Shown piece after piece: positions 46,386 to 59,593 of a stretch of DNA of 64,000 bases. Below the pieces are notes generated by a model. The model worked only from the letters and a program-made list of their open reading frames with translations, had not been told where the DNA came from and searched no databases. Numbering within the stretch: position 1 is the stretch's first letter; the number at the start of each line of letters is the position of its first letter. A program made the position numbers and the translations under genes. Source of the stretch: Streptomyces sp. NBC_01142 (GTDB lineage Bacteria > Actinomycetota > Actinomycetes > Streptomycetales > Streptomycetaceae); the NCBI RefSeq assembly GCF_026341125.1, contig NZ_JAPEOR010000001.1, positions 2,666,001-2,730,000 on the forward strand, read 5' to 3'.

Positions 46386-47369
46386 TCACTCGGCGGCTGC
46401 CTCGGGGTGGTGCAGGCGCCAGCCGTCCCAGGCCGACACGACCATCTCGCGCACCTCGCGCGAAGCCGTCCAGCCCAGTTGCTTGGTGATCAGTTCGACC
46501 GAGGCGACCGCCCTCGCGGCATCGCCGGGACGGCGCGGCTCGACCACCGGCTCCCCGGCCCAGCCCGTGATCTCGCCCACCAGATCGGCGAGCTCGCGCA
46601 CCGAGACGCCGACCCCGCGCCCGATGTTGACGGTCAGATCCCCGGGGCCCTCCTGGTCGTCCAGCGCGCGGGCAACCGCGAGATGGGCATCGGCCAGATC
46701 CGCGACATGGATGTAGTCACGGATGCAGGTGCCGTCCGGGGTCGGGTAGTCGGCACCGAAGATGCGGGGGGACGCACCGCGGGTGATCCGGTCGAAGAAC
46801 ATCGGGATGATGTTGAACACGCCGGTGTCGGCCAGCTCCGGCTGTGCGGCGCCCGCCACATTGAAGTAGCGCAGACAGGCCGTGGACAGGGAGTGTGCCC
46901 GGCCGGTGGCCCGTACCAGCCACTCACCGGTGAGCTTTGTCTCGCCGTACGGATTGATCGGCTCGCACGGGGCGCTCTCGGGAATCAGATCCATCTCCGG
47001 TACGCCGTACACGGCGGCCGAGGAGGAGAAGAGGAACCGCTGCACACCGGCCGCCACGACCGCCTCGAGCAGCACGGTCAGCCCCTGCACGTTCTCGCGG
47101 TAGTAGCGCAGCGGCTGCTCGACGGACTCCCCGACCTGCTTCTTCGCCGCGAGATGTACGACACCGGTGACGGCGTGCTCGGCGAGGGCGCGGTCGAGCA
47201 CCTCGCGGTCCAGCACCGACCCGCGCACCAGCGGAACCTCGGCGGGCAGCCGCCCGGCAATGCCCGACGAGAGGTCGTCGAGGACGACGACCCGCTCTCC
47301 TGCCGCTGTCATGGTTCGCGTCACATGCGCGCCGATATATCCCGCTCCACCCGTGATCAACCAAGTCAT
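46386..47369 (-). CDS. galE: UDP-glucose 4-epimerase
   Basis: The protein has 327 residues from ATG 47369. The extended SDR fold shows the NAD motif TGGAGYIGAHV, the Ser in FSSSAAVYG and the catalytic YxxxK in NPYGETKL, with GalE-specific YFNVAGA and the GTCIRDYIHVADLADAH segment. It makes UDP-galactose. It diverges from the CDP-alcohol transferase operon and may supply sugar for a surface glycan assembled there. Confidence 0.93.
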   Translation of the reverse strand: MTWLITGGAGYIGAHVTRTMTAAGERVVVLDDLSSGIAGRLPAEVPLVRGSVLDREVLDRALAEHAVTGVVHLAAKKQVGESVEQPLRYYRENVQGLTVLLEAVVAAGVQRFLFSSSAAVYGVPEMDLIPESAPCEPINPYGETKLTGEWLVRATGRAHSLSTACLRYFNVAGAAQPELADTGVFNIIPMFFDRITRGASPRIFGADYPTPDGTCIRDYIHVADLADAHLAVARALDDQEGPGDLTVNIGRGVGVSVRELADLVGEITGWAGEPVVEPRRPGDAARAVASVELITKQLGWTASREVREMVVSAWDGWRLHHPEAAAE

Positions 47370-47573: not shown

Positions 47574-49499
47574 CTGTCGACCGCCATCCTCACCGGTCCG
47601 CCAGTACCCGGATCGTCGCTCGAGGGCGATCTGCGGTCGCTGGGCTTTGACGTACGGGTCGCCGCCGGACCCGATGACACTGCCGCACTGATCGCCGCCG
47701 TACCGGGCGCCGACCGGGTGGCCGTCGTCGACCCCCGGTTCGTCGGGCACATCCACGCCCTGCGCCTGGCGCTGACGGACCCCCGCTTCCCGGCGGCCGC
47801 GGTCCCCGGCGCCCTGACGGTGCAGCCCGACGCCCGGACTGCGCTGACCCGCGCCATGCCGGCCGCGGCGGGCGAGGGCACCCCGTCCGGGGCCGCATCC
47901 GCGGCTTCCGGTGCCACCGCCGATGCGGCGGGCGGCGCGGCCGACGACGGCGACACCCTGTCGGCCGTCCAGGCCGCGGTGTGGCCCGGAACCCTCCCCG
48001 GCGCGGACACCGGGACGCAGGTGCTGCCCGACGCGCTCGCGGACGCTCTCGACGCCGACGGCACCGCTGTGCACCGGCCCGAGCTGGGGTCGCTCGTCGC
48101 GACCGTGCCCGGTGACCCCCAGGCCCGCAACGAGGCCCGTCAGGCCGTCAGCGCGGTCGACGACGAAGCCGTACGGCTGCGCTCCGCGGTCAAGGCCCGC
48201 GACGGCTTCTTCACCACCTTCTGCATCAGCCCGTACTCGCGTTACCTCGCCCGCTGGTGCGCGCGCCGCGGACTGACCCCGAACCAGGTCACCACCGCCT
48301 CGCTGCTCACCGCGCTGATCGCGGCCGGCAGCGCGGCCACCGGCACCCGGGGCGGCTATGTCGCGGCCGGCCTGCTGCTGCTCTTCTCCTTCGTCCTGGA
48401 CTGCACCGACGGGCAGCTCGCCCGCTACTCGCTGCAGTACTCCACGATGGGCGCCTGGCTGGACGCGACCTTCGACCGTGCCAAGGAGTACGCCTACTAC
48501 GCGGGCCTCGCCCTCGGCGCAGCCCGCAGCGGCGACGACGTATGGGCGCTCGCGCTCGGCGCGATGATCCTCCAGACCTGCCGGCACGTCGTCGACTTCT
48601 CCTTCAACGAGGCGAACCACGACGCGACCGCGAACACGAGCCCCACCGCCGCGCTCTCCGACAAACTCGACAGCGTCGGCTGGACGGTCTGGGTGCGCCG
48701 GATGATAGTGCTGCCGATCGGCGAACGCTGGGCGATGATCGCGGTGCTCACCGCCGTGACCACCCCCCGGATCGTCTTCTACGCGCTCCTGACCGGCTGC
48801 GCACTCGCCGCCTTCTACACCACGGCCGGCCGCGTCCTGCGCTCCCTCACCCGCAGGGCACGGCGCACCGACCGTGCCGCACAGGCGCTCGCGGACCTTG
48901 CCGACTCCGGCCCGCTTGCCGAGAGCGTCGCACGTGCCCTCAGGAAGAAAGCCCCGGGGCTCCCCGGGCTCATACCTCTCGCCGCCGCCGTGGCCGGCGC
49001 CGCCGCCCTCGTGGTCACGGCCGCCTTCACCGACTACGGCACCGTCTGGACGGCGCTCGCCGCCGCGGTGTACGTCGTCACCTCGGGCATCGCCGTCGCC
49101 CGCCCCCTCAAGGGCGCCCTCGACTGGCTCGTCCCGCCGGTGTTCCGGGCCGCCGAATACGGCACCGTCCTGGTGCTCGCGGCTCACGCCGAGGTGAACG
49201 GGGCATTGCCCGCAGCCTTCGGGCTGGTGGCCGCTGTCGCCTACCATCACTACGACACGGTGTACCGCATACGCGGCGGTACGGGGGCGCCGCCACGCTG
49301 GCTGGTGCGGGCGATCGGCGGACACGAAGGACGGATCCTGGCAGTCGCGCTGCTCGCTGTCCTGCTCAACAACTCGGACTTCACCATCGCGCTGGCGGCC
49401 CTTGCTGTGGCCGTCGCACTCGTGGTGCTCGTCGAGAGCATCCGCTTCTGGGTGTCCTCCGGAGCACCCGCCGTACATGACGAAGGAGAACCCGCATGA
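47574..49499 (+). CDS. CDP-alcohol phosphatidyltransferase with DUF5941-type extensions
   Basis: The start is probably CTG 47574: AAGGAGTGAG lies 6 bp upstream, an in-frame stop is at 47565, and the conserved N-terminus (LSTAILTGPPVPGSS) begins there; the first usual start codon, GTG 47718, would cut 48 residues. The 641-residue protein has an N-terminal domain (1-200) with an Ala/Gly-rich insert, a CDP-alcohol transferase core with the full motif D276-CT-D279-G..AR..G293..D297..D301, and a membrane-rich C-terminal DUF5941-like region. It should transfer a phospho-alcohol from CDP. It is the first of five overlapping genes. Confidence 0.85.
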   Translation: MSTAILTGPPVPGSSLEGDLRSLGFDVRVAAGPDDTAALIAAVPGADRVAVVDPRFVGHIHALRLALTDPRFPAAAVPGALTVQPDARTALTRAMPAAAGEGTPSGAASAASGATADAAGGAADDGDTLSAVQAAVWPGTLPGADTGTQVLPDALADALDADGTAVHRPELGSLVATVPGDPQARNEARQAVSAVDDEAVRLRSAVKARDGFFTTFCISPYSRYLARWCARRGLTPNQVTTASLLTALIAAGSAATGTRGGYVAAGLLLLFSFVLDCTDGQLARYSLQYSTMGAWLDATFDRAKEYAYYAGLALGAARSGDDVWALALGAMILQTCRHVVDFSFNEANHDATANTSPTAALSDKLDSVGWTVWVRRMIVLPIGERWAMIAVLTAVTTPRIVFYALLTGCALAAFYTTAGRVLRSLTRRARRTDRAAQALADLADSGPLAESVARALRKKAPGLPGLIPLAAAVAGAAALVVTAAFTDYGTVWTALAAAVYVVTSGIAVARPLKGALDWLVPPVFRAAEYGTVLVLAAHAEVNGALPAAFGLVAAVAYHHYDTVYRIRGGTGAPPRWLVRAIGGHEGRILAVALLAVLLNNSDFTIALAALAVAVALVVLVESIRFWVSSGAPAVHDEGEPA

Positions 49500-50242
49500 T
49501 CGGCCTCGTACTGGCAGCCGGTGCCGGAAGGCGCCTGCGCCCCTACACCGACACGCTCCCGAAGGCCCTCGTGCCCGTCGACGGCGATACCACCGTCCTC
49601 GACCTCACCCTGGGTAACTTCGCGGAGATCGGGCTCACCGAGGCCGCCATCGTCGTCGGCTACCGCAAGGAGGCCGTCTACGCGCGCAAGGCGGAGCTGG
49701 AGTCCACCTACGGCCTCAAGCTCACCCTCGTCGACAACGACAAGGCCGAGGAGTGGAACAACGCGTACTCCCTGTGGTGCGCCCGTGAGGTCCTCAAGCA
49801 GGGCGTCATCCTCGCCAACGGCGACACCGTGCACCCGGTCTCCGTCGAGAAGACCCTGCTCGCCGCCCGCGGCAACGGCCAGAAGATCATCCTTGCCCTC
49901 GACACGGTGAAGCATCTCGCCGACGAGGAGATGAAGGTCATCACCGAGGGCGACCGCGGCTTGGGAGGCGTGAAGCGCATCACCAAGCTGATGGACCCGG
50001 CCACCGCCACCGGCGAGTACATCGGTGTCACCCTCATCGAGCCCGAGGCCGCGGAGGAGCTCGCCGACGCGCTGAAGACCACCTTCGAGCGCGATCCCGA
50101 CCTCTACTACGAGGACGGCTACCAGGAGCTCGTGAACCGCGGCTTCACCGTGGACGTGGCCCCCATCGGCGATGTCACCTGGGTCGAGATCGACAACCAT
50201 GACGACCTCGCGAAGGGCCGTGAGATCGCGTGCCAGTACTGA
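49496..50242 (+). CDS. sugar/polyol-phosphate nucleotidyltransferase (cytidylyltransferase-like)
   Basis: The protein has 248 residues and starts inside the previous stop (ATGA). The nucleotide-binding signature is LVLAAGAGRRLRPYTDTLPKALVPV; a metal/product site ILANGDTVHP and a late EIDNHDDL follow. It joins NTP to a phosphorylated alcohol or sugar. Next to two CDP-alcohol transferases, CTP is the likely nucleotide, giving a CDP-polyol, as in inositol-phosphate or phosphocholine cytidylyltransferases. The acceptor is inferred from the next gene. Confidence 0.85.
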   Translation: MIGLVLAAGAGRRLRPYTDTLPKALVPVDGDTTVLDLTLGNFAEIGLTEAAIVVGYRKEAVYARKAELESTYGLKLTLVDNDKAEEWNNAYSLWCAREVLKQGVILANGDTVHPVSVEKTLLAARGNGQKIILALDTVKHLADEEMKVITEGDRGLGGVKRITKLMDPATATGEYIGVTLIEPEAAEELADALKTTFERDPDLYYEDGYQELVNRGFTVDVAPIGDVTWVEIDNHDDLAKGREIACQY

Positions 50243-51291
50243 CCCGGCTCATCCCGTCGCCGGTCGTCGTCGACATCGCCCGCGGTGCCCTGGACGATCT
50301 GGCCGGCCTCCTGGCCGACCAGCGGATCTCCTCCTCCGGCAAGCTGGCGATCGCTATCAGCGGCGGCTCCGGCCAGGCGCTGCGCGAGAAGCTCTCCCCG
50401 GTGCTCCCGGGCGCCGCGTGGTACGAGGTCGCCGACGGCACCATCGACTCCGCGGTCAAGCTCGCCGACGACATAAAGGGCAAGCGGTACGACGCCGTGG
50501 TCGGCCTCGGCGGCGGCAAGATCATCGACGTGGCGAAGTACGCCGCGGCCCGGGTCGGCCTGCCGATGGTGGCTGTTGCGACGAATCTCTCGCACGACGG
50601 CATCTGCTCCCCGGTGTCCATCCTGGACAACGACAACGGCCGCGGCTCCTACGGCGTCCCCACGCCCATCGCCATGGTCATCGACCTCGATGTGATCCGC
50701 GACGCACCGGTCCGGTTCATCCGTTCCGGCATCGGCGACGCGATCTCCAACATCTCGGCGATCGCGGACTGGGAGCTTTCCCACCGGATCAACGGCGAGC
50801 AGGTCGACGGACTGGCCGCCGCCATGGCCCGTACCGCCGGCGAGGCCGTTCTGCGCCACCCCGGCGGGGTCGGCGACGACGAGTTCCTCACCGTGCTCTC
50901 CGAGTCGCTCGTGCTGTCCGGCATCGCGATGTCGATCAGCGGAGACACCCGGCCCTCGTCCGGTGCCTGTCATGAGATCAGTCACGCCTTCGACCTGCTC
51001 CACCCCAAGCGCAGTGCGCTCCACGGTGAGCAGGTCGGCCTGGGCGCCGCCTTCGCGATGCATCTGCGCGGCGCCCGCGAGGAGTCGGGCCTCTTCGCCG
51101 ACGTACTGCGCAGACACGGCCTGCCGGTGCTCCCCGAGGAAATCGGGTTCAGCATCGACGAGTTCGTCAACGCAGTGGAGTACGCACCGCAGACCCGCCC
51201 GGGACGCTTCACGATCCTGGAGCACCTCGACCTGTCCGCAGACCACATCAGGGACGCTTACGCCGACTATGTCAAGACCATCAGTAGCTGA
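50230..51291 (+). CDS. iron-containing alcohol dehydrogenase, glycerol-1-phosphate dehydrogenase-like
   Basis: The protein has 353 residues from GTG 50230, overlapping the nucleotidyltransferase by 13 bp. The NAD(P) site reads YDAVVGLGGGKIIDVAKYAA and the metal-binding region includes SHDGICSP, then CHEISHAFDLL and LHGEQVGLGAAFAMHL. The pattern matches AraM/EgsA-type sn-glycerol-1-phosphate dehydrogenases. It would reduce dihydroxyacetone phosphate (or a related ketose phosphate) to a polyol phosphate that the preceding enzyme could activate with CTP. Confidence 0.85.
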   Translation: MPVLTRLIPSPVVVDIARGALDDLAGLLADQRISSSGKLAIAISGGSGQALREKLSPVLPGAAWYEVADGTIDSAVKLADDIKGKRYDAVVGLGGGKIIDVAKYAAARVGLPMVAVATNLSHDGICSPVSILDNDNGRGSYGVPTPIAMVIDLDVIRDAPVRFIRSGIGDAISNISAIADWELSHRINGEQVDGLAAAMARTAGEAVLRHPGGVGDDEFLTVLSESLVLSGIAMSISGDTRPSSGACHEISHAFDLLHPKRSALHGEQVGLGAAFAMHLRGAREESGLFADVLRRHGLPVLPEEIGFSIDEFVNAVEYAPQTRPGRFTILEHLDLSADHIRDAYADYVKTISS

Positions 51292-52051
51292 ACTCCGTCC
51301 GGTCGTTCACCCCGACGGTGTCAAGGACCGGCGCAGCGGAGAGCACTGGGCCGGGCGCATGTACATGCGAGAGATCTCGCTGCACATCGACCCGTACCTG
51401 GTGAACACCAAGATCACCCCCAACCAGCTCACCTACCTCATGGTCGTGGTGGGCGTGCTGGGCGGCGCGGCCCTGCTGATCCCGGGACTGACCGGCGCGA
51501 TCCTCGCGGTGGTGCTCTTCCAGATCTACCTCCTGCTCGACTGCGTCGACGGAGAGGTCGCCCGCTGGCGCGGCCAGACCTCGATCACCGGCGTCTATCT
51601 CGACCGGATCGGCCACTACCTCTGCGAGGCGGCCCTGCTGGTCGGCTTCGGCATCCGCGGCGCCGATGTCTTCCACCAGGAGGGCACCACCAACTGGCTG
51701 TGGGCCTTCCTCGGTACGGTCGCCGCGCTCGGCGCGATCCTGATCAAGGCCGAGACCGACCTGGTCGACGTGGCCCGTCAGCGCAGCGGTCTGCCCGCCG
51801 TCAAGGACGAGGCATCCGTGCCCCGGTCCTCCGGTCTGGCGCTGGCCCGCCGTGCCGCGGCCGCGCTGAAGTTCCACCGGCTCGTCGGCGGGATCGAGGC
51901 CAGCCTCTTCATCCTGGTCGTGGCGATCATCGACACGATCCAGGGCGACCTGTTCTTCACCCGCCTCGGTATCGCGGTCCTCGCCGGCATCGCGGTCGTC
52001 CAGACGCTGCTGCACCTGGTCTCCATCCTGGCGTCGAGCAGGCTCAAATGA
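51269..52051 (+). CDS. CDP-alcohol phosphatidyltransferase with variant active site
   Basis: The protein has 260 residues from ATG 51269, overlapping the dehydrogenase by 23 bp. Five to six membrane helices surround the motif D91-CV-D94-G95..A98-R99..G108..D112..H116. The first three Asp are kept, but the fourth, the usual catalytic base, is His (DRIGH). The N-terminus (VHPDGVKDRRSGEHWAGRMY) is hydrophilic. It should use a CDP-alcohol. The change suggests altered chemistry or a His base. The stop overlaps the GT2 start (ATGA). Confidence 0.85.
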   Translation: MSRPSVAELRPVVHPDGVKDRRSGEHWAGRMYMREISLHIDPYLVNTKITPNQLTYLMVVVGVLGGAALLIPGLTGAILAVVLFQIYLLLDCVDGEVARWRGQTSITGVYLDRIGHYLCEAALLVGFGIRGADVFHQEGTTNWLWAFLGTVAALGAILIKAETDLVDVARQRSGLPAVKDEASVPRSSGLALARRAAAALKFHRLVGGIEASLFILVVAIIDTIQGDLFFTRLGIAVLAGIAVVQTLLHLVSILASSRLK

Positions 52052-52944
52052 GTACGCAGACGAGCAGGCCGATGAAGCTGGGTGCCGTCGTCATCACGAT
52101 GGGCAACCGGCCGGACGATCTGCGTGCCCTCCTGGACTCGGTCGCCAAGCAGGACGGCGACCCGATCGAGGTGGTCGTCGTCGGCAACGGCACCCCGGTG
52201 ACCGGTGTCCCCGAGGGCGTACGGACCGTGGACCTGCCCGAGAACCTGGGCATCCCCGGTGGCCGAAACGTCGGCATCGAGGCCTTCGGCCCGTCCGGCT
52301 CGGCCGTCGACGCCCTGCTCTTCCTCGACGACGACGGTCTGCTGCCGAACTCCGACACCGCCACGCTGGTGCGCGAGGCCTTCGACGCCGACCCGGGGCT
52401 GGGCATCGTCAGCTTCCGGATCGCCGACCCGGAGACCGGGCTCACCCAGCGCCGCCACGTCCCGCGGCTGCGCGCCTCCGACCCCATGCGCTCCTCGCGG
52501 GTGACGACCTTCCTCGGCGGCGCCAATGCCGTACGGACCAAGGTCCTCGCCGAGGTCGGCTCGCTGCCGGACGAGTTCTTCTACGCCCATGAGGAGACCG
52601 ACCTAGCCTGGCGGGCACTGGACGCCGGATGGGCGATCGACTACCGCTCGGACATGGTGCTGTTCCACCCGACACTGCCCCCGTCCCGGCACGCGGTCTA
52701 CCACCGCATGGTGGCCCGCAACCGGGTCTGGGTCGCGCGCCGGAATCTGCCCGCGCCGCTGATCCCCGTCTACCTGGGGGTCTGGGTGCTCCTCACGCTC
52801 GCCCGGCGACCTACGATGCCCGCGCTGAAGGCCTGGTTCGGAGGTTTCAAGGAGGGTATGCGCACACCTTGTGGACCCCGCCGCCCCATGAGGTGGCGTA
52901 CGGTATGGCGGCTTACCCGGCTGGGCCGACCTCCTGTCATCTGA
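52048..52944 (+). CDS. family 2 glycosyltransferase
   Basis: The protein has 298 residues and starts inside the previous stop. The GT-A fold shows LGAVVITMGNRPDDLRALL, ENLGIPGGRNVGIE, the metal DxD-like LFLDDDG, and FFYAHEETDLAWRALDAGW with the putative base. The C-terminus is basic, and there may be one hydrophobic segment (PVYLGVWVLLTLA). It resembles rhamnosyl- or galactofuranosyl-type GT2 enzymes. It closes the five-gene overlapping operon and probably decorates the polyol product. Confidence 0.88.
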   Translation: MSTQTSRPMKLGAVVITMGNRPDDLRALLDSVAKQDGDPIEVVVVGNGTPVTGVPEGVRTVDLPENLGIPGGRNVGIEAFGPSGSAVDALLFLDDDGLLPNSDTATLVREAFDADPGLGIVSFRIADPETGLTQRRHVPRLRASDPMRSSRVTTFLGGANAVRTKVLAEVGSLPDEFFYAHEETDLAWRALDAGWAIDYRSDMVLFHPTLPPSRHAVYHRMVARNRVWVARRNLPAPLIPVYLGVWVLLTLARRPTMPALKAWFGGFKEGMRTPCGPRRPMRWRTVWRLTRLGRPPVI

Positions 52945-53021
52945 CAAGCTCGGCTCTGAGAGCATCGGGCCTGAACCAGCGCCCGAACTGCCGCGCATCT
53001 TGAACACGAAAGTTTCAACTT

Positions 53022-53951
53022 GTGAGTGACACAACCCACGACGGTGCCATCGCGATGAGCCCTACGCCATCCGCTGACGACGGCCTGTCCCCGGCGGAGC
53101 TCGCCGCCAAGTACGGCCTGTCGGTGAGTGGTGCCCGACCGGGGCTTGTCCAGTACGTCCGGCAGCTCTGGGGCCGCCGCCACTTCATCCTGGCCTTCTC
53201 GCAGGCCAAGCTGACGGCCCAGTACAGCCAGGCCAAGCTCGGCCAGCTGTGGCAGGTGGCGACCCCCCTGCTCAACGCGCTCGTCTACTTCCTGATCTTC
53301 GGGTTGATCCTCGAGGCCAGCAAGGGAATGCCGACGCACATCTACATCCCGTTCCTGGTGACGGGTGTGTTCGTCTTCACCTTCACCCAGAGCTCGGTGA
53401 TGGCGGGTGTCCGGGCGATCTCGAACAACCTCGGGCTGGTGCGCGCGCTGCACTTCCCGCGGGCCTCGCTGCCGATCTCCTTCGCGCTGCAGCAGCTCCA
53501 GCAACTGCTGTTCTCCATGATCGTGCTGGTGGTGATCGTGGTCGCCTTCGGCAGCTACCCCACCTGGTCCTGGCTGCTCATCGTGCCCGCGCTCGCGCTG
53601 CAGTTCGTGTTCAACACCGGCCTGGCCCTGATCATGGCGCGACTGGGCTCCAAGACTCCGGACCTTGCACAGCTGATGCCCTTCATCATGCGTACGTGGC
53701 TGTACGCGTCGGGCGTCATGTTCTCCATCCCGGTGATGCTGGCGGACAAGCCGGCCTGGATCGCCGATGTACTCATGTACAACCCGGCGGCCATCTACAT
53801 GGACCTCATCCGCTTTGCCCTGATCGACGGCTACGGCGCCGAGAACCTGCCGTCGCACGTCTGGGGTGCCGGCCTGATCTGGGCGGCCCTGATCGGCTGC
53901 GCAGGCTTTGTGTACTTCTGGAAGGCTGAGGAGCGGTACGGCCGTGGCTGA
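53022..53951 (+). CDS. ABC-2 type export permease (TagG/Wzm-like)
   Basis: The protein has 309 residues from GTG 53022. A hydrophilic N-terminus with an amphipathic stretch precedes six membrane helices; QYSQAKLGQLWQVATPLLNALVYFLI is the typical entry of polysaccharide/teichoic-acid exporters. The stop overlaps the ATPase start by 8 bp. It lies 77 bp after the glycosyltransferase gene on the same strand. It would export a lipid-linked glycan or teichoic-acid-like polymer, in line with the CDP-polyol genes before it. Confidence 0.9.
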   Translation: MSDTTHDGAIAMSPTPSADDGLSPAELAAKYGLSVSGARPGLVQYVRQLWGRRHFILAFSQAKLTAQYSQAKLGQLWQVATPLLNALVYFLIFGLILEASKGMPTHIYIPFLVTGVFVFTFTQSSVMAGVRAISNNLGLVRALHFPRASLPISFALQQLQQLLFSMIVLVVIVVAFGSYPTWSWLLIVPALALQFVFNTGLALIMARLGSKTPDLAQLMPFIMRTWLYASGVMFSIPVMLADKPAWIADVLMYNPAAIYMDLIRFALIDGYGAENLPSHVWGAGLIWAALIGCAGFVYFWKAEERYGRG

Positions 53952-54744
53952 CGAAAAGAACGACCGAAACGCCGGTGACGCCCGCATCCCCACGGTCATC
54001 GCCGACGATGTGCACATCGTCTACCGGGTCAACGCCGGCAGCGGCGGCAAGGGCAGCGCGACCGCGGCCCTGAGCCGGATACTGCGCCGGGACAAGGGCG
54101 AGTCGCGGGGTGTGCGCAAGGTGCACGCGGTCCGGGGCGTCACCTTCACGGCGTACCGCGGCGAGGCGATCGGCCTGATCGGGACCAACGGCTCCGGCAA
54201 GTCGACCCTGCTGCGGGCCATCGCGGGCCTGCTGCCCGCGGAGAGCGGCAAGGTCTACACCGACGGCCAGCCCTCCCTGCTGGGTGTGAACGCCGCGCTC
54301 ATGAACGATCTGACGGGCGAGCGCAACGTCATACTCGGCGGCCTGGCCATGGGAATGTCGCGCGAGGAGATCCGCGAGCGCTACCAGCAGATCGTCGACT
54401 TCTCGGGAATCAACGAGAAGGGCGACTTCATCACCCTTCCGATGCGTACGTACTCCTCCGGCATGGCGGCCAGGCTCCGGTTCTCCATCGCCGCCGCCAA
54501 GGACCACGACGTCCTGATGATCGACGAGGCGCTCGCGACCGGTGACCGGAGGTTCCAGATCCGCTCCGAGCAGCGCATCCGTGAGCTGCGCAAGGAGGCC
54601 GGCACGGTCTTCCTGGTCAGCCACAGCAACAAGTCGATCAGGGACACCTGTGACCGCGTCCTGTGGCTGGAGAAGGGCGAACTCCTGATGGACGGCCCGA
54701 CGGACGAGGTCATCAAGGCGTACGAGAAGGAGACCGGCAAGTAG
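53944..54744 (+). CDS. ABC export ATPase (TagH/Wzt-like)
   Basis: The protein has 266 residues from GTG 53944 (GAGGAG upstream). Walker A is GTNGSGKST, the signature the variant YSSGMAARL typical of polysaccharide exporters, Walker B VLMIDEALATGD, and the switch His lies in LVSHSNK. It lacks the C-terminal carbohydrate-binding domain of some Wzt proteins, so substrate choice must lie elsewhere. It works with the overlapping permease. A hairpin terminator follows. Confidence 0.92.
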   Translation: MADEKNDRNAGDARIPTVIADDVHIVYRVNAGSGGKGSATAALSRILRRDKGESRGVRKVHAVRGVTFTAYRGEAIGLIGTNGSGKSTLLRAIAGLLPAESGKVYTDGQPSLLGVNAALMNDLTGERNVILGGLAMGMSREEIRERYQQIVDFSGINEKGDFITLPMRTYSSGMAARLRFSIAAAKDHDVLMIDEALATGDRRFQIRSEQRIRELRKEAGTVFLVSHSNKSIRDTCDRVLWLEKGELLMDGPTDEVIKAYEKETGK

Positions 54745-55071: not shown

Positions 55072-55134
55072 ATGACGGGAAATCTCCAGCTCCGCGAGGC
55101 TTTCGCCGTCCCCGTGCCGGGCAGCACGCAGTGA
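55072..55134 (+). CDS. 20-codon leader ORF overlapping hpnC start
   Basis: ATG 55072 follows GGGAG and opens a 20-residue frame (begins MTGNLQLREAFAVP) whose TGA overlaps the hpnC GTG (GTGA at 55131-55134). hpnC lacks its own ribosome site (GCAGCACGCA precedes it), so its translation probably depends on this ORF. The peptide itself has no recognised family. It could simply be a coupling device or a sensing leader. Confidence 0.5.
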   Translation: MTGNLQLREAFAVPVPGSTQ

Positions 55135-56042
55135 CGGGCACCCGGCAGGCGCGCGCCGAGACCTCCGCGCGCGCCACACTCGACAAGGCATCCGGTGAGA
55201 ACTTCCCGGTGGCCCCGTTCTTCCTGCCACGCGCCTGGCGCGACGACCTGATGGCGGTGTACGGCTACGCCCGCCTCGTCGACGACATCGGTGACGGCGA
55301 CCTCGCGCCCGGCGGCGCCGACGCCCGGCACCTCGGCGTCGACCCCGTGTACGGCGACGATCCCTCCGTCCTGCTCGACGCCTTCGAGGCCGATCTGCGG
55401 CGCGTCTTCGATGGCACGCCGCGGCACCCCCTGCTGCGGACCCTCCGGCCGACCGTGCGCCGCCGCTCGCTCACCCCGGCCCCCTTCCTCGGCCTGATCG
55501 AGGCCAACCGCCAGGACCAGCACGTACGCCGCTACGAGACCTACGACGATCTCCTCTCCTACTGCGAGCTGTCCGCCAACCCCGTCGGCCGACTGGTGCT
55601 GCAGATCACCGGGACGGCCAGCCCCGAGCGCGTGCGCCGCTCCGACGCCGTCTGTACGGCGCTCCAGATCATCGAGCACCTCCAGGACGTGGCCGAGGAC
55701 CTGGAGCGCGACCGGATCTATCTCCCCGCCGAGGACATGCTGCGGTTCCATGTCACCGAGTCCGACCTGGCCGCCCGGACCGGGGGCGCATCGGTGCGCG
55801 CACTGGTCGCGTACGAAGCCGAACGCGCCCGCGAGCTGCTGAATGAAGGCACGCCGCTGGTGGGTAGCGTCCACGGCAGGCTGCGGCTGCTGCTCGCCGG
55901 TTTTGTGGCCGGAGGGCGCGCCGCCCTCCACGCGATCGCGGCCGCCGGACACGACGTACTACCCGGACCGCCCAAGCGCACCAAGGCGAATCTGCTGCGT
56001 GAAGTGGGAGCTGTCTTGCGAAGAGCGCGTAGAGAGGGGTGA
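55131..56042 (+). CDS. hpnC: hydroxysqualene synthase HpnC (squalene synthase-like)
   Basis: The protein has 303 residues from GTG 55131. It is a trans-isoprenyl-diphosphate synthase of the phytoene/squalene synthase fold. The first aspartate-rich motif is YGYARLVDDIGD (DDIGD), the second LQDVAEDLERDRIYLP (DVAED); SYCELSANPVGRLVLQ is the typical helix. In the HpnCDE route HpnD makes presqualene diphosphate from two FPP and HpnC converts it to hydroxysqualene. It is translationally coupled to a leader ORF upstream and its TGA overlaps the hpnD reading start (GTGA). Confidence 0.92.
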   Translation: MTGTRQARAETSARATLDKASGENFPVAPFFLPRAWRDDLMAVYGYARLVDDIGDGDLAPGGADARHLGVDPVYGDDPSVLLDAFEADLRRVFDGTPRHPLLRTLRPTVRRRSLTPAPFLGLIEANRQDQHVRRYETYDDLLSYCELSANPVGRLVLQITGTASPERVRRSDAVCTALQIIEHLQDVAEDLERDRIYLPAEDMLRFHVTESDLAARTGGASVRALVAYEAERARELLNEGTPLVGSVHGRLRLLLAGFVAGGRAALHAIAAAGHDVLPGPPKRTKANLLREVGAVLRRARREG

Positions 56043-56050
56043 GCCGGACG

Positions 56051-56989
56051 ATGGAGGGACCGACCCAGGTGTCCGCACCGGTGCAGGCCGCGTACAGCTA
56101 CTGCGAGGCCATCACCGGGCAGCAGGCGCGTAACTTCGCGTACGGGATCCGGCTGCTGCCGACCGACAAGCGGCAGGCCATGTCGGCGCTGTACGCCTTC
56201 TCGCGGCGCGTCGACGACATCGGCGACGGCACCCTCGCCCCGACGGCCAAGCGTGACCGGCTCGAGGCGACGCGGCACCTTCTCGAGCGGATCAGCCAGG
56301 GCGCGGTCGACGAGGACGACACCGACCCGGTCGCCGTGGCGCTCGCGGACGCGGCGCGCCGCTTCCCGCTGCCGCTCGGCGGGCTCGACGAGCTCATCGA
56401 CGGCGTCCTGATGGACGTACGCGGCGAGACGTACGAGACCTGGGGCGAGCTCAAGGCGTACTGCCGGTGTGTCGCGGGTGCGATCGGGCGGCTCTCGCTC
56501 GGCGTGTTCGGCACCCAGCCCGGCGCGCGGGGCGCCGAGCGCGCCGCCGAGTACGCCGACACGCTGGGACTGGCGCTCCAGCTCACCAACATCCTCAGGG
56601 ACGTCCGCGAGGACGCCGGCAACGGACGTACCTACCTGCCCGCCGACGACCTCGCCAAGTTCGGCTGCTCCGCGGGCTTCCACAGCGCCACCCCGCCGCC
56701 CGGATCCGACTTCGCGGGCCTGGTGCACTTCGAGGTCAGGCGCGCCCGCACGCTCTTTGCCGAGGGCTACCGGCTGTTGCCCATGCTCGACCGGCGCAGC
56801 GGTGCCTGCGTCGCCGCGATGGCCGGCATCTACCGGCGTCTCCTGGACCGCATCGAGCGCGAACCCGAGGCGGTGCTGCGCGGCCGCGTGTCCCTGCCGG
56901 GGCGTGAGAAGGCGTACGTCGCCGTGCGCGGCCTGTCCGGACTCGACGCCCGGCACGTCACCCGGCAGACACTCAGGGGACGTTCCTGA
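56051..56989 (+). CDS. hpnD: presqualene diphosphate synthase HpnD
   Basis: The protein has 312 residues from ATG 56051 (GAGGGG upstream); GTG 56039 in frame overlaps the hpnC stop and is an alternative. Motifs are LYAFSRRVDDIGDG and NILRDVREDAGNGRTYLP, with YCRCVAGAIGRLSLGVFG. It condenses two FPP to presqualene diphosphate. Its TGA overlaps an ATG (TGATG) of a 34-codon ORF that leads into hpnE. Confidence 0.92.
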   Translation: MEGPTQVSAPVQAAYSYCEAITGQQARNFAYGIRLLPTDKRQAMSALYAFSRRVDDIGDGTLAPTAKRDRLEATRHLLERISQGAVDEDDTDPVAVALADAARRFPLPLGGLDELIDGVLMDVRGETYETWGELKAYCRCVAGAIGRLSLGVFGTQPGARGAERAAEYADTLGLALQLTNILRDVREDAGNGRTYLPADDLAKFGCSAGFHSATPPPGSDFAGLVHFEVRRARTLFAEGYRLLPMLDRRSGACVAAMAGIYRRLLDRIEREPEAVLRGRVSLPGREKAYVAVRGLSGLDARHVTRQTLRGRS

Positions 56990-57093
56990 TGCGGGCGCAC
57001 ACGCACCAGCAGGCGTACGCGCACCCGTGGTGCGCAACCGTCCGCCACGGCGCCGCGTCCCTCACTGCAACGGCCCGAGGGGAGGTCGCATGA
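56989..57093 (+). CDS. 34-codon ORF bridging hpnD and hpnE
   Basis: The ATG at 56989 overlaps the hpnD stop (TGATG) and its TGA overlaps the hpnE start (ATGA). AGGGGA lies 8 nt upstream. The peptide begins MRAHTHQQAYAHPW and contains CATVRHGAASLTATARG; the ATxRxGxASLTAT pattern resembles the small DUF6380 proteins of Streptomyces, from memory. It may be a real small protein or only a coupling reading frame. Confidence 0.45.
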   Translation: MRAHTHQQAYAHPWCATVRHGAASLTATARGEVA

Positions 57094-58478
57094 CGGACGA
57101 CGACGACATGCGTTCCCGGCACGCGGTGGTGGTCGGCGGAGGACTCGCCGGCGTCACCGCGGCGCTGCAACTCGCCGACGCGGGAGTCCGCGTCACCCTG
57201 GTCGAAGGCCGCCCGCGCCTGGGCGGCCTTGCCTTCTCCTTCCGCCGCGGCGACCTCACCGTCGACAACGGGCAGCATGTGTACCTGCGCTGCTGTACCG
57301 CCTACCGCTGGTTCCTCGACCGGGTCGAGGGCGCGCATCTCGCCCCGCTCCAGAACCGCCTGGACGTACCCGTCCTCGACGTGGCCCCCGCGAGTGGACC
57401 GCGTCTCGGACGGCTGCGCCGCACCGCACTGCCCGTACCGCTGCACCTTGCCGCCGGCCTGGCCGGCTACCCGCACCTCTCGCTCGCCGAGCGGGCGGGC
57501 GTCGGGCGCGCCGCACTCGCCCTCAAGCGGCTCGACCCGGCCGACCCGGCCCTCGACGGCATCGACTTCGGTACCTGGCTGGGCCGCCACGGTCAGTCGC
57601 CGCGCACCATCGACGCGCTGTGGGACCTGGTCGGCGTGGCGACCCTGAACGCCACCGCGCCGAACGCCTCCATGGGTCTCGCCGCGATGGTCTTCAAGAC
57701 CGGGCTGCTCTCCGAGCCCGGTGCCGCCGACATCGGCTGGGCGCACGTGCCCCTCGGTGAACTGCACGACACGCTGGCCCGCAAGGCCCTCGACTCCGCC
57801 GGCGTACGCACCGAGCTGTCCACCCGCGTCAGGAGCATCTCCCGCGCCGAGCACGGGCGTTGGTATGTGGAGGTGGACGGCGAGCGGCTCGACGCGGACA
57901 GTGTCGTCCTGGCCGTACCGCAGCGCGAGACCCACACGCTGCTGCCCGAAGGCGCGCTCGAGGACCCCGACCGGCTGCTCGACATCGGTACCGCGCCGAT
58001 CCTCAACATCCATGTCCTGTACGACCGCAAGGTGCTGCGCCGTCCCTTCTTCGCCGCGCTCGGCACCCCCGTCCAGTGGGTCTTCGACCGCACCGATGCC
58101 TCGGGACTGAAGGACGGCCAGTATCTGGCGCTGTCCCAGTCCGCGGCACAGGACGAGATCGACACGCCTGTCGCCGATTTGCGCGAGCGCTATCTGCCCG
58201 AGCTGGAGCGGCTGCTGCCCGCCGCGCGCGCCGCTCGGGTACGCGACTTCTTCGTCACCCGGGAGCGGACGGCGACCTTCGCCCCCGCCCCCGGAGTCGG
58301 CCGGCTGCGACCGGGTGCGCGCACCCGGGCCCCCGGCCTGTACCTTGCGGGCTCGTGGACCGCCACCGGGTGGCCCGCAACCATGGAGAGCGCCGTACGC
58401 AGCGGCTTCAGCGCCGCGGGCGCGGCACTCTCCGCGCTCGGCCGCCACCATGAACATCCGCTCAAGGAGGCGGCGTGA
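57090..58478 (+). CDS. hpnE: hydroxysqualene dehydroxylase HpnE
   Basis: The protein has 462 residues from ATG 57090 (GGGGAGG 6 bp upstream). The FAD motif is AVVVGGGLAGVTAALQLADAG with RLGGLAFSF; the C-terminal FAD-contact segment is GLYLAGSWTATGWPATMESAVRSG (read in two parts), typical of phytoene-desaturase-like amine oxidases. It reduces hydroxysqualene to squalene, the last HpnCDE step. The TGA overlaps the start of the prenyl synthase gene (GTGA). Confidence 0.92.
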   Translation: MTDDDDMRSRHAVVVGGGLAGVTAALQLADAGVRVTLVEGRPRLGGLAFSFRRGDLTVDNGQHVYLRCCTAYRWFLDRVEGAHLAPLQNRLDVPVLDVAPASGPRLGRLRRTALPVPLHLAAGLAGYPHLSLAERAGVGRAALALKRLDPADPALDGIDFGTWLGRHGQSPRTIDALWDLVGVATLNATAPNASMGLAAMVFKTGLLSEPGAADIGWAHVPLGELHDTLARKALDSAGVRTELSTRVRSISRAEHGRWYVEVDGERLDADSVVLAVPQRETHTLLPEGALEDPDRLLDIGTAPILNIHVLYDRKVLRRPFFAALGTPVQWVFDRTDASGLKDGQYLALSQSAAQDEIDTPVADLRERYLPELERLLPAARAARVRDFFVTRERTATFAPAPGVGRLRPGARTRAPGLYLAGSWTATGWPATMESAVRSGFSAAGAALSALGRHHEHPLKEAA

Positions 58479-59593
58479 GCCTCAGTACTGGAACAAGAGG
58501 AGAGACCGTGCCGACTGTGCCCTCGGCGAACCCGGCTGATGACCTCGCAGCCGGCGGAGAGAGCCTGGACATCCTGGCGCTGCTGGAACGCGGGCGGACC
58601 ATGTCCACCCCGGTGCTGCGCGCCGCCGTGAACCGGCTCGCGCCGCCCATGGACACCGTCGCCGCCTACCACTTCGGCTGGATCGACGCACAAGGACGGC
58701 CCGCCGACGGGGACGGTGGCAAGGCCGTACGTCCCGCGCTCGCGCTGCTCTCCGCCGAGGCGGCCGGAGCTGCGCCGGAGGTGGGCGTCCCCGGCGCAGT
58801 CGCCGTCGAGCTGGTGCACAACTTCTCACTGCTGCACGACGACCTGATGGACGGCGACGAGCAGCGCCGCCACCGCGACACCGTCTGGAAGGTCCACGGG
58901 CCCGCCCAGGCGATCCTCGTCGGCGACGCGCTCTTCGCCCTCGCCAACGAGGTCCTGCTGGAACTCGGCACCGTCGACGCGGGGCGTGCCACACGCCGGC
59001 TGACCACTGCCTCGCGCAAGCTGATCGACGGCCAGGCCCAGGACATCTCCTACGAGCACCGCGAGCGGGTCACCGTCGAGGAGTGCCTGGAGATGGAGGG
59101 CAACAAGACCGGCGCGCTGCTGGCCTGTGCCGTCTCCATCGGCGCCGTGCTCGGCGGGGCGGACGACAGGACGGCCGACACGCTGGAGGCCTACGGCTAC
59201 CACCTCGGTCTCGCCTTCCAGGCCGTCGACGATCTGCTCGGCATCTGGGGCGACCCGGAGGCCACCGGCAAGCAGACCTGGAGCGATCTGCGCCAGCGCA
59301 AGAAGTCCCTGCCGGTCGTCGCCGCGCTCGCCGCCGGCGGACCGGCCTCGCAGCGCCTCGGGGAGCTGCTCGCGGCCGACGCCAAGAGCAATGACTTCGA
59401 CAGCTTCTCCGAGGAGGAGTTCGCCACCAGGGCGGCCCTGATCGAGGAGGCGGGCGGCCGCGAATGGACCTCCCAGGAGGCCCGCAGGCAGCACGCCGTC
59501 GCGATCGAGGCGCTGGACCGCGTCGACATGCCGGATCGGGTGCGAGCGCAGCTCGTCGCGCTCGCGGACTTCGTCGTCGTACGAAAGAGATGA
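58475..59593 (+). CDS. polyprenyl diphosphate synthase
   Basis: The protein has 372 residues from GTG 58475 (AAGGAGG just upstream, GTGA overlap with hpnE); GTG 58508 with AGGAG is also plausible. The first motif is LLHDDLMDGDEQRRH (D122, D123; DDxxD type) and the second AFQAVDDLLGIWGD. Product-length residues before the first motif are small or aliphatic (FSLLHDD), so chain length cannot be read off. In this operon it probably supplies FPP for squalene, though a longer product is possible. Confidence 0.9.
   Translation: MSLSTGTRGETVPTVPSANPADDLAAGGESLDILALLERGRTMSTPVLRAAVNRLAPPMDTVAAYHFGWIDAQGRPADGDGGKAVRPALALLSAEAAGAAPEVGVPGAVAVELVHNFSLLHDDLMDGDEQRRHRDTVWKVHGPAQAILVGDALFALANEVLLELGTVDAGRATRRLTTASRKLIDGQAQDISYEHRERVTVEECLEMEGNKTGALLACAVSIGAVLGGADDRTADTLEAYGYHLGLAFQAVDDLLGIWGDPEATGKQTWSDLRQRKKSLPVVAALAAGGPASQRLGELLAADAKSNDFDSFSEEEFATRAALIEEAGGREWTSQEARRQHAVAIEALDRVDMPDRVRAQLVALADFVVVRKR

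Follow-up and report, generated by a model that had tools for sequence, protein, structure and literature searches.

A conserved Streptomyces gene block predicted to supply a CDP-polyol, most likely for a teichoic-acid-type polymer

We analyzed a window of 64,000 nucleotides (nt) from Streptomyces sp. NBC_01142 (RefSeq assembly GCF_026341125.1, contig NZ_JAPEOR010000001.1, positions 2,666,001 to 2,730,000 of the forward strand), whose genome comprises 10.1 Mb on 15 contigs. At positions 47574-54744, the window contains a block of seven genes, here called g1 to g7, which encode two homologs of cytidine diphosphate (CDP)-alcohol phosphotransferases (CDP-APs), a nucleotidyltransferase, a dehydrogenase, a glycosyltransferase, and the two components of an ATP-binding cassette (ABC) exporter. 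The likely direction of the block is the supply of a CDP-polyol to a teichoic-acid-type polymer. Its features are given below in window coordinates (CTP, cytidine triphosphate; G1P, sn-glycerol-1-phosphate).

47574-49499, plus strand: g1, 641 amino acids, with matches to Pfam CDP-OH_P_transf (37.5 bits) and DUF5941 (325.8 bits) and an extra N-terminal domain
48192-48863, plus strand: CDP-AP core of g1, about residues 207-430 (Pfam PF01066 at residues 235-379; motif scan)
48870-49496, plus strand: residues 433-641 of g1, the DUF5941 part, for which modelling gives a second, degenerate CDP-AP fold
49496-50242, plus strand: g2, predicted CTP:glycerol-1-phosphate cytidylyltransferase (Pfam NTP_transferase)
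50230-51291, plus strand: g3, predicted G1P dehydrogenase, AraM/G1PDH-like (Pfam Fe-ADH_2; NCBIfam G1P dehydrogenase, 246 bits)
51269-52051, plus strand: g4, second CDP-AP homolog (Pfam CDP-OH_P_transf, 43.2 bits)
52048-52944, plus strand: g5, GT2 glycosyltransferase (Pfam, 41.2 bits)
53022-53951, plus strand: g6, ABC-2 permease, TagG/TarG-like (Pfam ABC2_membrane)
53944-54744, plus strand: g7, ABC ATPase, TagH-like (Pfam ABC_tran)
46386-47369, minus strand (opposite to g1-g7): galE

Genes g1 to g5 form a chain of overlapping reading frames, with overlaps of 4 nt (g1/g2), 13 nt (g2/g3), 23 nt (g3/g4), and 4 nt (g4/g5); a gap of 77 nt separates g5 from g6, and g6 and g7 overlap by 8 nt. An initial annotation, made from the letters of the sequence, had assigned the five overlapping genes to a DUF5941-type CDP-AP, a nucleotidyltransferase, a G1P dehydrogenase-like enzyme, a second CDP-AP, and a GT2 enzyme, followed by an ABC-2 exporter and with galE diverging; the Pfam and NCBIfam matches and the gene positions agree with all of this. 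The start codon of g1 is a CTG at 47574, preceded by AAGGAG, and at the matching position eight Streptomyces relatives carry either CTG (four) or TTG (four). The closest relatives of the g1 and g4 proteins of the window are Streptomyces proteins.

The order of the genes is conserved well beyond this genome. Using g3 as the query (E 1e-20 or better), matches were obtained in 42 of 296 genomes drawn from the phylum and in 74 of 296 genomes drawn from the class; all 28 Streptomyces genomes of the class draw matched, including that of the window. Stretches of 20 kb were then read for 11 Streptomyces main copies (L038-L045, L196, L197, and L199), 12 further phylum-draw loci, 20 class-draw loci, and 80 named loci of other genera (Nocardiopsis, Streptomonospora, Actinomadura, Nonomuraea, Streptosporangium, Microbispora, and others); the named loci are the best 80 of at least 594 stretches matched by nine orthologs and are biased to near relatives. 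All 11 Streptomyces loci showed g1 to g7 in unchanged order. Taking the four sets in the sequence Streptomyces, phylum draw, class draw, and named loci, g2 lay directly upstream of g3 in 11/11, 8/12, 19/20, and 80/80 loci, and g4 came after g3 in 11/11, 4/12, 15/20, and 77/80. A g1-like gene, g2, g3, g4, and g5 were all in place in 11/11, 2/12, 13/20, and 70/80, and both exporter genes fell inside the 20-kb stretch in 11/11, 2/12, 9/20, and 22/80. Genes g4 and g5 were adjacent in 77 of the 80 named loci. The genes are therefore not scattered, a point on which the initial annotation had made its reading depend.

A g1-like match was found upstream of g3 in 70 of the 80 named loci; both of its parts were present there in 50 loci, the CDP-AP part only in 1, and the DUF5941 part only in 19, while 10 had neither. 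The CDP-AP-side part and DUF5941 occur as separate open reading frames (ORFs) in some loci, such as L150 and L101, and g1 of Streptomyces thus seems to have two partners fused in one gene. At L047 (8378-10858), g2, g3, and a different CDP-AP-like ORF stand consecutively, and no g4 or g5 matches were seen.

A profile of 10 g2 orthologs was compared to solved structures and matched best to LicC (1jyk; 76.9 bits), a CTP:phosphocholine cytidylyltransferase, followed by 6pd1 (72.4 bits) and 4jd0 (68.3 bits); the next match reached 45.1 bits. The search itself names 6pd1 and 4jd0 only as nucleotidyl transferases, and we take them to be two further CTP enzymes, PntC and the inositol-phosphate cytidylyltransferase (IPCT) of T. 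maritima, respectively. Lower in the list came 2xme and 4mnd (36 and 33 bits), both named as CTP-inositol enzymes. On this evidence, g2 resembles cytidylyltransferases more closely than enzymes using uridine triphosphate or deoxythymidine triphosphate, the two nucleotides for which a preference, with a common hexose phosphate, would have spoken against the initial annotation. Its Pfam match is to NTP_transferase and not to CTP_transf_like, and g2 lies outside the TagD family. The corresponding profile of nine g3 orthologs matched the G1P dehydrogenases 4rgq and 4rfl (214 bits each), 5fb3 (178 bits), and 9h4x (116 bits), while glycerol dehydrogenases (1kq3 and others) stayed at or below 77 bits, with a single exception, 3ce9. 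Judged by these scores, g3 is nearer to G1P dehydrogenases than to most glycerol dehydrogenases. Since dehydrogenase and cytidylyltransferase are strict neighbors, we infer that their joint product would most simply be CDP-sn-1-glycerol.

The genomes that carry the pair appear to lack the usual enzyme for CDP-glycerol. No match to TIGR01518 (TagD) was obtained in the genome of the window at E 0.001, while the same search matched 12 of 14 control genomes, 2 of them above the cut-off. The only two CTP_transf_like proteins of this genome are NadD and CoaD. It does encode three TagF/TagB-like proteins (349-419 bits), all on contig C2. Throughout the class draw, TagF-like proteins were found in 140 of the 296 genomes and TagD matches of at least 100 bits in 22, of which 3 exceeded the curated cut-off. 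The set of g3 genomes used for this comparison numbered 72 (the 74 class-draw matches minus two weak ones, G533 and G565); TagF-like proteins were present in 69 of them and a TagD match of at least 100 bits in none. Counted by genus, the g3 carriers gave 28/29 for TagF-like proteins and 0/29 for TagD at that score. Among the matches listed, at least five genomes have g3 and a TagF-like gene no more than 10 kb apart, and at least nine have DUF5941 at such a distance from a TagF-like gene, one of the DUF5941 matches being below the cut-off. One ORF scores 38.6 bits for PF04464, above the cut-off; its family is present in 23 of 90 loci.

Copies of the pair are also found outside the block, at a site that appears to be open to exchange. 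In three other Streptomyces genomes, extra copies without CDP-APs were observed, namely, g2-g3 in G539 (locus L194) and G433 (L198) and g3 alone in G403 (L195). TagF-like genes lie 7.1 kb from the copy in L194 and 5.7 kb from that in L195, and none was found in the 20-kb stretch of L198. Judged by reading the ORFs of L190, L194, L195, and L198, these copies appear to occupy the rplU/obg site, where the genome of the window instead carries an IspD-SDR fusion. Both domains of this fusion were recognized by family search; it is 64-65% identical to one in L143, and such fusions are present in 33 of the 80 named loci. The fusion may serve to make CDP-ribitol. The presence of different modules at one site suggests that modules for polyol supply have been swapped there.

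The two CDP-APs differ in their catalytic motif. The core of g1 carries DCTDGQLAR...GAWLDATFD, and the full motif DxxDGxxARx8GxxxDxxxD, with all four Asp, was present in 120 of 120 listed homologs. An AlphaFold2 model of g1 matches AF2299 from the N-terminal domain through the CDP-AP core, and the CDP-APs of g1 and g4 both match AF2299 and IPCT-DIPPS. According to the available text of PMC4634129, AF2299 binds CDP-glycerol and not CDP-diacylglycerol. Homology of g4 to the CDP-AP family is clear from its sequence, and here the fourth Asp is replaced by His (codon 51614-51616). Among 106 g4 homologs, this position is His in 81, Ala in 24, and Asp in 1, and it is His in all 120 members of a separate homolog listing; the only homolog that keeps the Asp is the outlier L053, which is 30% identical. 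In MtPIPS, the D4N exchange nearly abolishes activity (PMC4634129, in the part available). The fourth Asp is regarded as the catalytic base. Modelling suggests that DUF5941 is likely a further, degenerate CDP-AP fold; sequence-level searches for such a relationship gave no proof. Inside the predicted helices of the domain, positions with Asp, Arg, Glu, His-His, and Asp are invariant. A cholinephosphotransferase-like acceptor site in g1, suggested from model comparison, was weakened by the modelling of DUF5941.

The exporter resembles that of wall teichoic acid systems. The top solved relatives of g7 are TagH (7dd0; 183 bits) and TarH (6jbh; 176 bits), and those of g6 are the 9cfp/9cfl permease, which is the partner of a TagH, and TarG (6jbh), so that among known exporters g6-g7 appears closest to TagGH. 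On C2, the third TagF-like match is followed, about 5 kb downstream, by a gene for a paralog with 73% identity to g7. In L200, a TetR-like ORF was noticed next to the TagH paralog upon reading the ORFs. The only solved relative of g5 is 9jma, at a weak E of 1.1e-5. In S. roseosporus, a TagG acts in wall teichoic acid export, as reported from complementation in the accessible portion of PMC10269677.

Taken together, these data led us to a reading that we consider somewhat probable, in which the g3-g2 pair makes CDP-1-glycerol and replaces TagD in the supply of a teichoic-acid-type polymer, while g1, g4, g5, and g6-g7 use and export the product. Its substrates, stereochemistry, acceptor, and final product are predictions. 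g3 would reduce dihydroxyacetone phosphate to G1P, and g2 would join G1P and CTP to CDP-1-glycerol, the mirror image of the CDP-glycerol made by TagD. In Streptomyces and Streptosporangiales, the pair would thereby stand in for TagD and feed polyol phosphate to the polymer. The membrane CDP-APs of the block would use CDP-glycerol; g1, with its four catalytic Asp, would pass glycerol-1-phosphate to a lipid or glycolipid acceptor, and g4, which has lost the fourth Asp, and the DUF5941 half of g1 would be nonstandard CDP-AP-like partners. g5 would add a sugar, and g6-g7 would export the product. The sn-1 handedness of the glycerol is plausible and constitutes the riskiest part of the claim. A wider proposal is more tentative, and we regard it as possible rather than probable. 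It holds that Streptomycetales and Streptosporangiales make CDP-sn-1-glycerol by a G1P dehydrogenase-cytidylyltransferase pair and that this precursor feeds TagF-like polymerases and CDP-APs to yield a mirror-image (sn-1) poly(glycerol phosphate). Wall and lipoteichoic acid would then share a backbone without TagD and without LtaS, and the CDP-AP machine would combine one canonical half with a degenerate one fused to it (DUF5941), plus a partner that lacks the catalytic Asp.

Several observations weigh against the CDP-1-glycerol reading. A weaker TIGR01518 match (68 bits or less) was present in 46 of the 72 g3 genomes, so another cytidylyltransferase is possible there. Of the 140 TagF-positive genomes, 52 (26 of 104 at E 1e-60) had neither g3 nor a TagD match of at least 100 bits, which indicates that TagF enzymes use other polyols as well. 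The genomes are not independent of one another, and Fisher values for the association of g3, TagF, and TagD overstate it. No TagF/TagB-like gene was found in the window, the three of this genome being on another contig, and the own-genome TagF queries had no match in the 80 named loci. DUF5941 is missing in 10 of the 72 g3 genomes and occurs without g3 in 17 genomes. As for the individual proteins, the top match of the g3 profile is 3ce9 (217 bits), which was deposited as a glycerol dehydrogenase. At 246.3 bits, g3 is below the cut-off of the NCBIfam equivalog NF002022 (413), for which reason we classify it as G1P dehydrogenase-like only, and g7 (173 bits) is likewise below the TagH equivalog cut-off of 320. 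The reading also leaves the need for two or three CDP-AP-like units unexplained.

Some of these points favor a different polyol, which we judge unlikely. In that case, g3 would reduce another ketose or triose phosphate and g2 would activate the product, giving a CDP-polyol other than glycerol for an unusual-polyol polymer or glycolipid. This would fit the score of g3 below the G1P dehydrogenase cut-off, its identity of only about one-half to relatives outside the genus, and the frequency of the IspD-SDR fusion, an alternative polyol module, among the named loci (33/80). However, those relatives of g3 that have a name are G1P and glycerol dehydrogenases, and extra g3 copies lie near homologs of TagF-like CDP-glycerol glycerophosphotransferases. 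A product other than a polymer, namely, the headgroup of a glycerophospholipid or glycolipid, ranks just after this and is improbable in our estimate; here CDP-1-glycerol would serve g1 in the way that CDP-choline serves choline phosphotransferases, diacylglycerol or a glycolipid would receive the glycerol-1-phosphate, and the result would be a membrane lipid or lipid anchor. A soluble compatible solute similar to di-myo-inositol phosphate or glycerophosphoinositol is very unlikely, since a GT2 gene is conserved in the same row, together with exporter genes in Streptomyces, although the CDP-APs of g1 and g4 as well as g2 do resemble parts of IPCT-DIPPS. We give next to no weight to a phosphonate pathway, as would be suggested by 6pd1 (presumably PntC) as second-best g2 profile match, because the phosphoenolpyruvate mutase search (TIGR02320) gave one match of 24 bits in the genome of the window against a cut-off of 320, with no match above the cut-off in the control genomes either. 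The same holds for an archaeal-type ether lipid (AraM plus PcrB, as in Bacillus), for which g3 is suitably AraM-like and named araM in Streptomyces (PMC13118837, as far as its available text goes), but the PcrB family PF01884 had no match in the genome of the window, while 7 of 14 control genomes matched.

Downstream of the block, the hopanoid genes hpnC, hpnD, and hpnE are located at window positions 55131-58478, followed by a polyprenyl synthase gene (58475-59593) that scores highest in NCBIfam against the family 2 encapsulin cargo polyprenyl transferase, with 412 bits just short of the 450-bit cut-off. The hopanoid genes stand next to the block in 11/11 Streptomyces loci and in 0/112 of the others (12 + 20 + 80). 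A hopanoid side pathway was rejected for this reason, and these genes were treated as mere neighbors.

The initial annotation had cautiously proposed that glycerol-1-phosphate or a comparable CDP-polyol goes into an unusual phosphoglycolipid or polymer for export, and, as far as sequence comparison can tell, this is still the best-supported reading. Its description of the locus as a CDP-polyol or surface-polymer locus stands as well; "unknown product" does not, since the product can be narrowed to one most likely of the teichoic acid type. To this we add that TagD is absent, that TagF-like proteins co-occur with g3, that g4 has lost its catalytic Asp, and that DUF5941 likely adopts a CDP-AP fold. 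A 2026 paper agrees in that its available text links a Streptomyces synteny group (clusters 14531, 14532, and 14538, with araM, tagG, tagH, and crtB) to teichoic acid (PMC13118837); by the gene names, we identify this group as the same block. Relative to the accessible part of that paper, the mechanism via CDP-1-glycerol, the TagD gap, the range beyond Streptomyces, and the CDP-AP oddities are new. No proposal of CDP-1-glycerol for actinobacterial teichoic acid was found among the papers listed by our searches of the open-access PMC literature. A paper on CDP-glycerol enzymes considers, in the portion available, that bacteria likely have no CDP-1-glycerol (PMC8262930); if our reading is true, the block is a counterexample. 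The lipoteichoic acid of Streptomyces hygroscopicus has a polyglycerolphosphate backbone and is close in structure to its wall teichoic acid. In Streptomyces, there are no clear LtaS orthologs, tagB and tagF orthologs are present, and the route of lipoteichoic and wall teichoic acid synthesis is open (both from the accessible text of PMC3196553). The predicted CDP-1-glycerol route puts named genes on this question, with the handedness of the glycerol as a sharp test. Besides, g4 represents a natural CDP-AP that has lost its presumed catalytic base, and the block would offer a function for DUF5941.

Among known systems, the block would resemble TagD (CDP-3-glycerol) and TarI-TarJ (CDP-ribitol) in that it provides a CDP-polyol specifically for a polymer exported by TagGH. 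As with TarJ-TarI, dehydrogenase and cytidylyltransferase are encoded side by side. Unlike TagD, g2 stems from another family and has two CDP-APs attached to its block, and since g3 is of the G1P dehydrogenase kind, the predicted glycerol enantiomer is opposite to that of the TagD product. With Bacillus AraM-PcrB the block shares a bacterial G1P dehydrogenase-like enzyme; however, PcrB was not found in the genome of the window, and g3 is paired with a cytidylyltransferase. Lipoteichoic acid synthesis transfers a Gro1P moiety (PMC8262930, available text), and, as in the LtaS pathway, the block would yield glycerol-1-phosphate units, whereas its donor would be CDP-1-glycerol instead of phosphatidylglycerol. 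Finally, the combination of cytidylyltransferase-like and CDP-AP domains is reminiscent of Archaeoglobus IPCT-DIPPS and AF2299, from which the block differs by its separate cytidylyltransferase gene, its G1P dehydrogenase-like gene, GT2, exporter, and DUF5941, and by a g4 without the fourth Asp.

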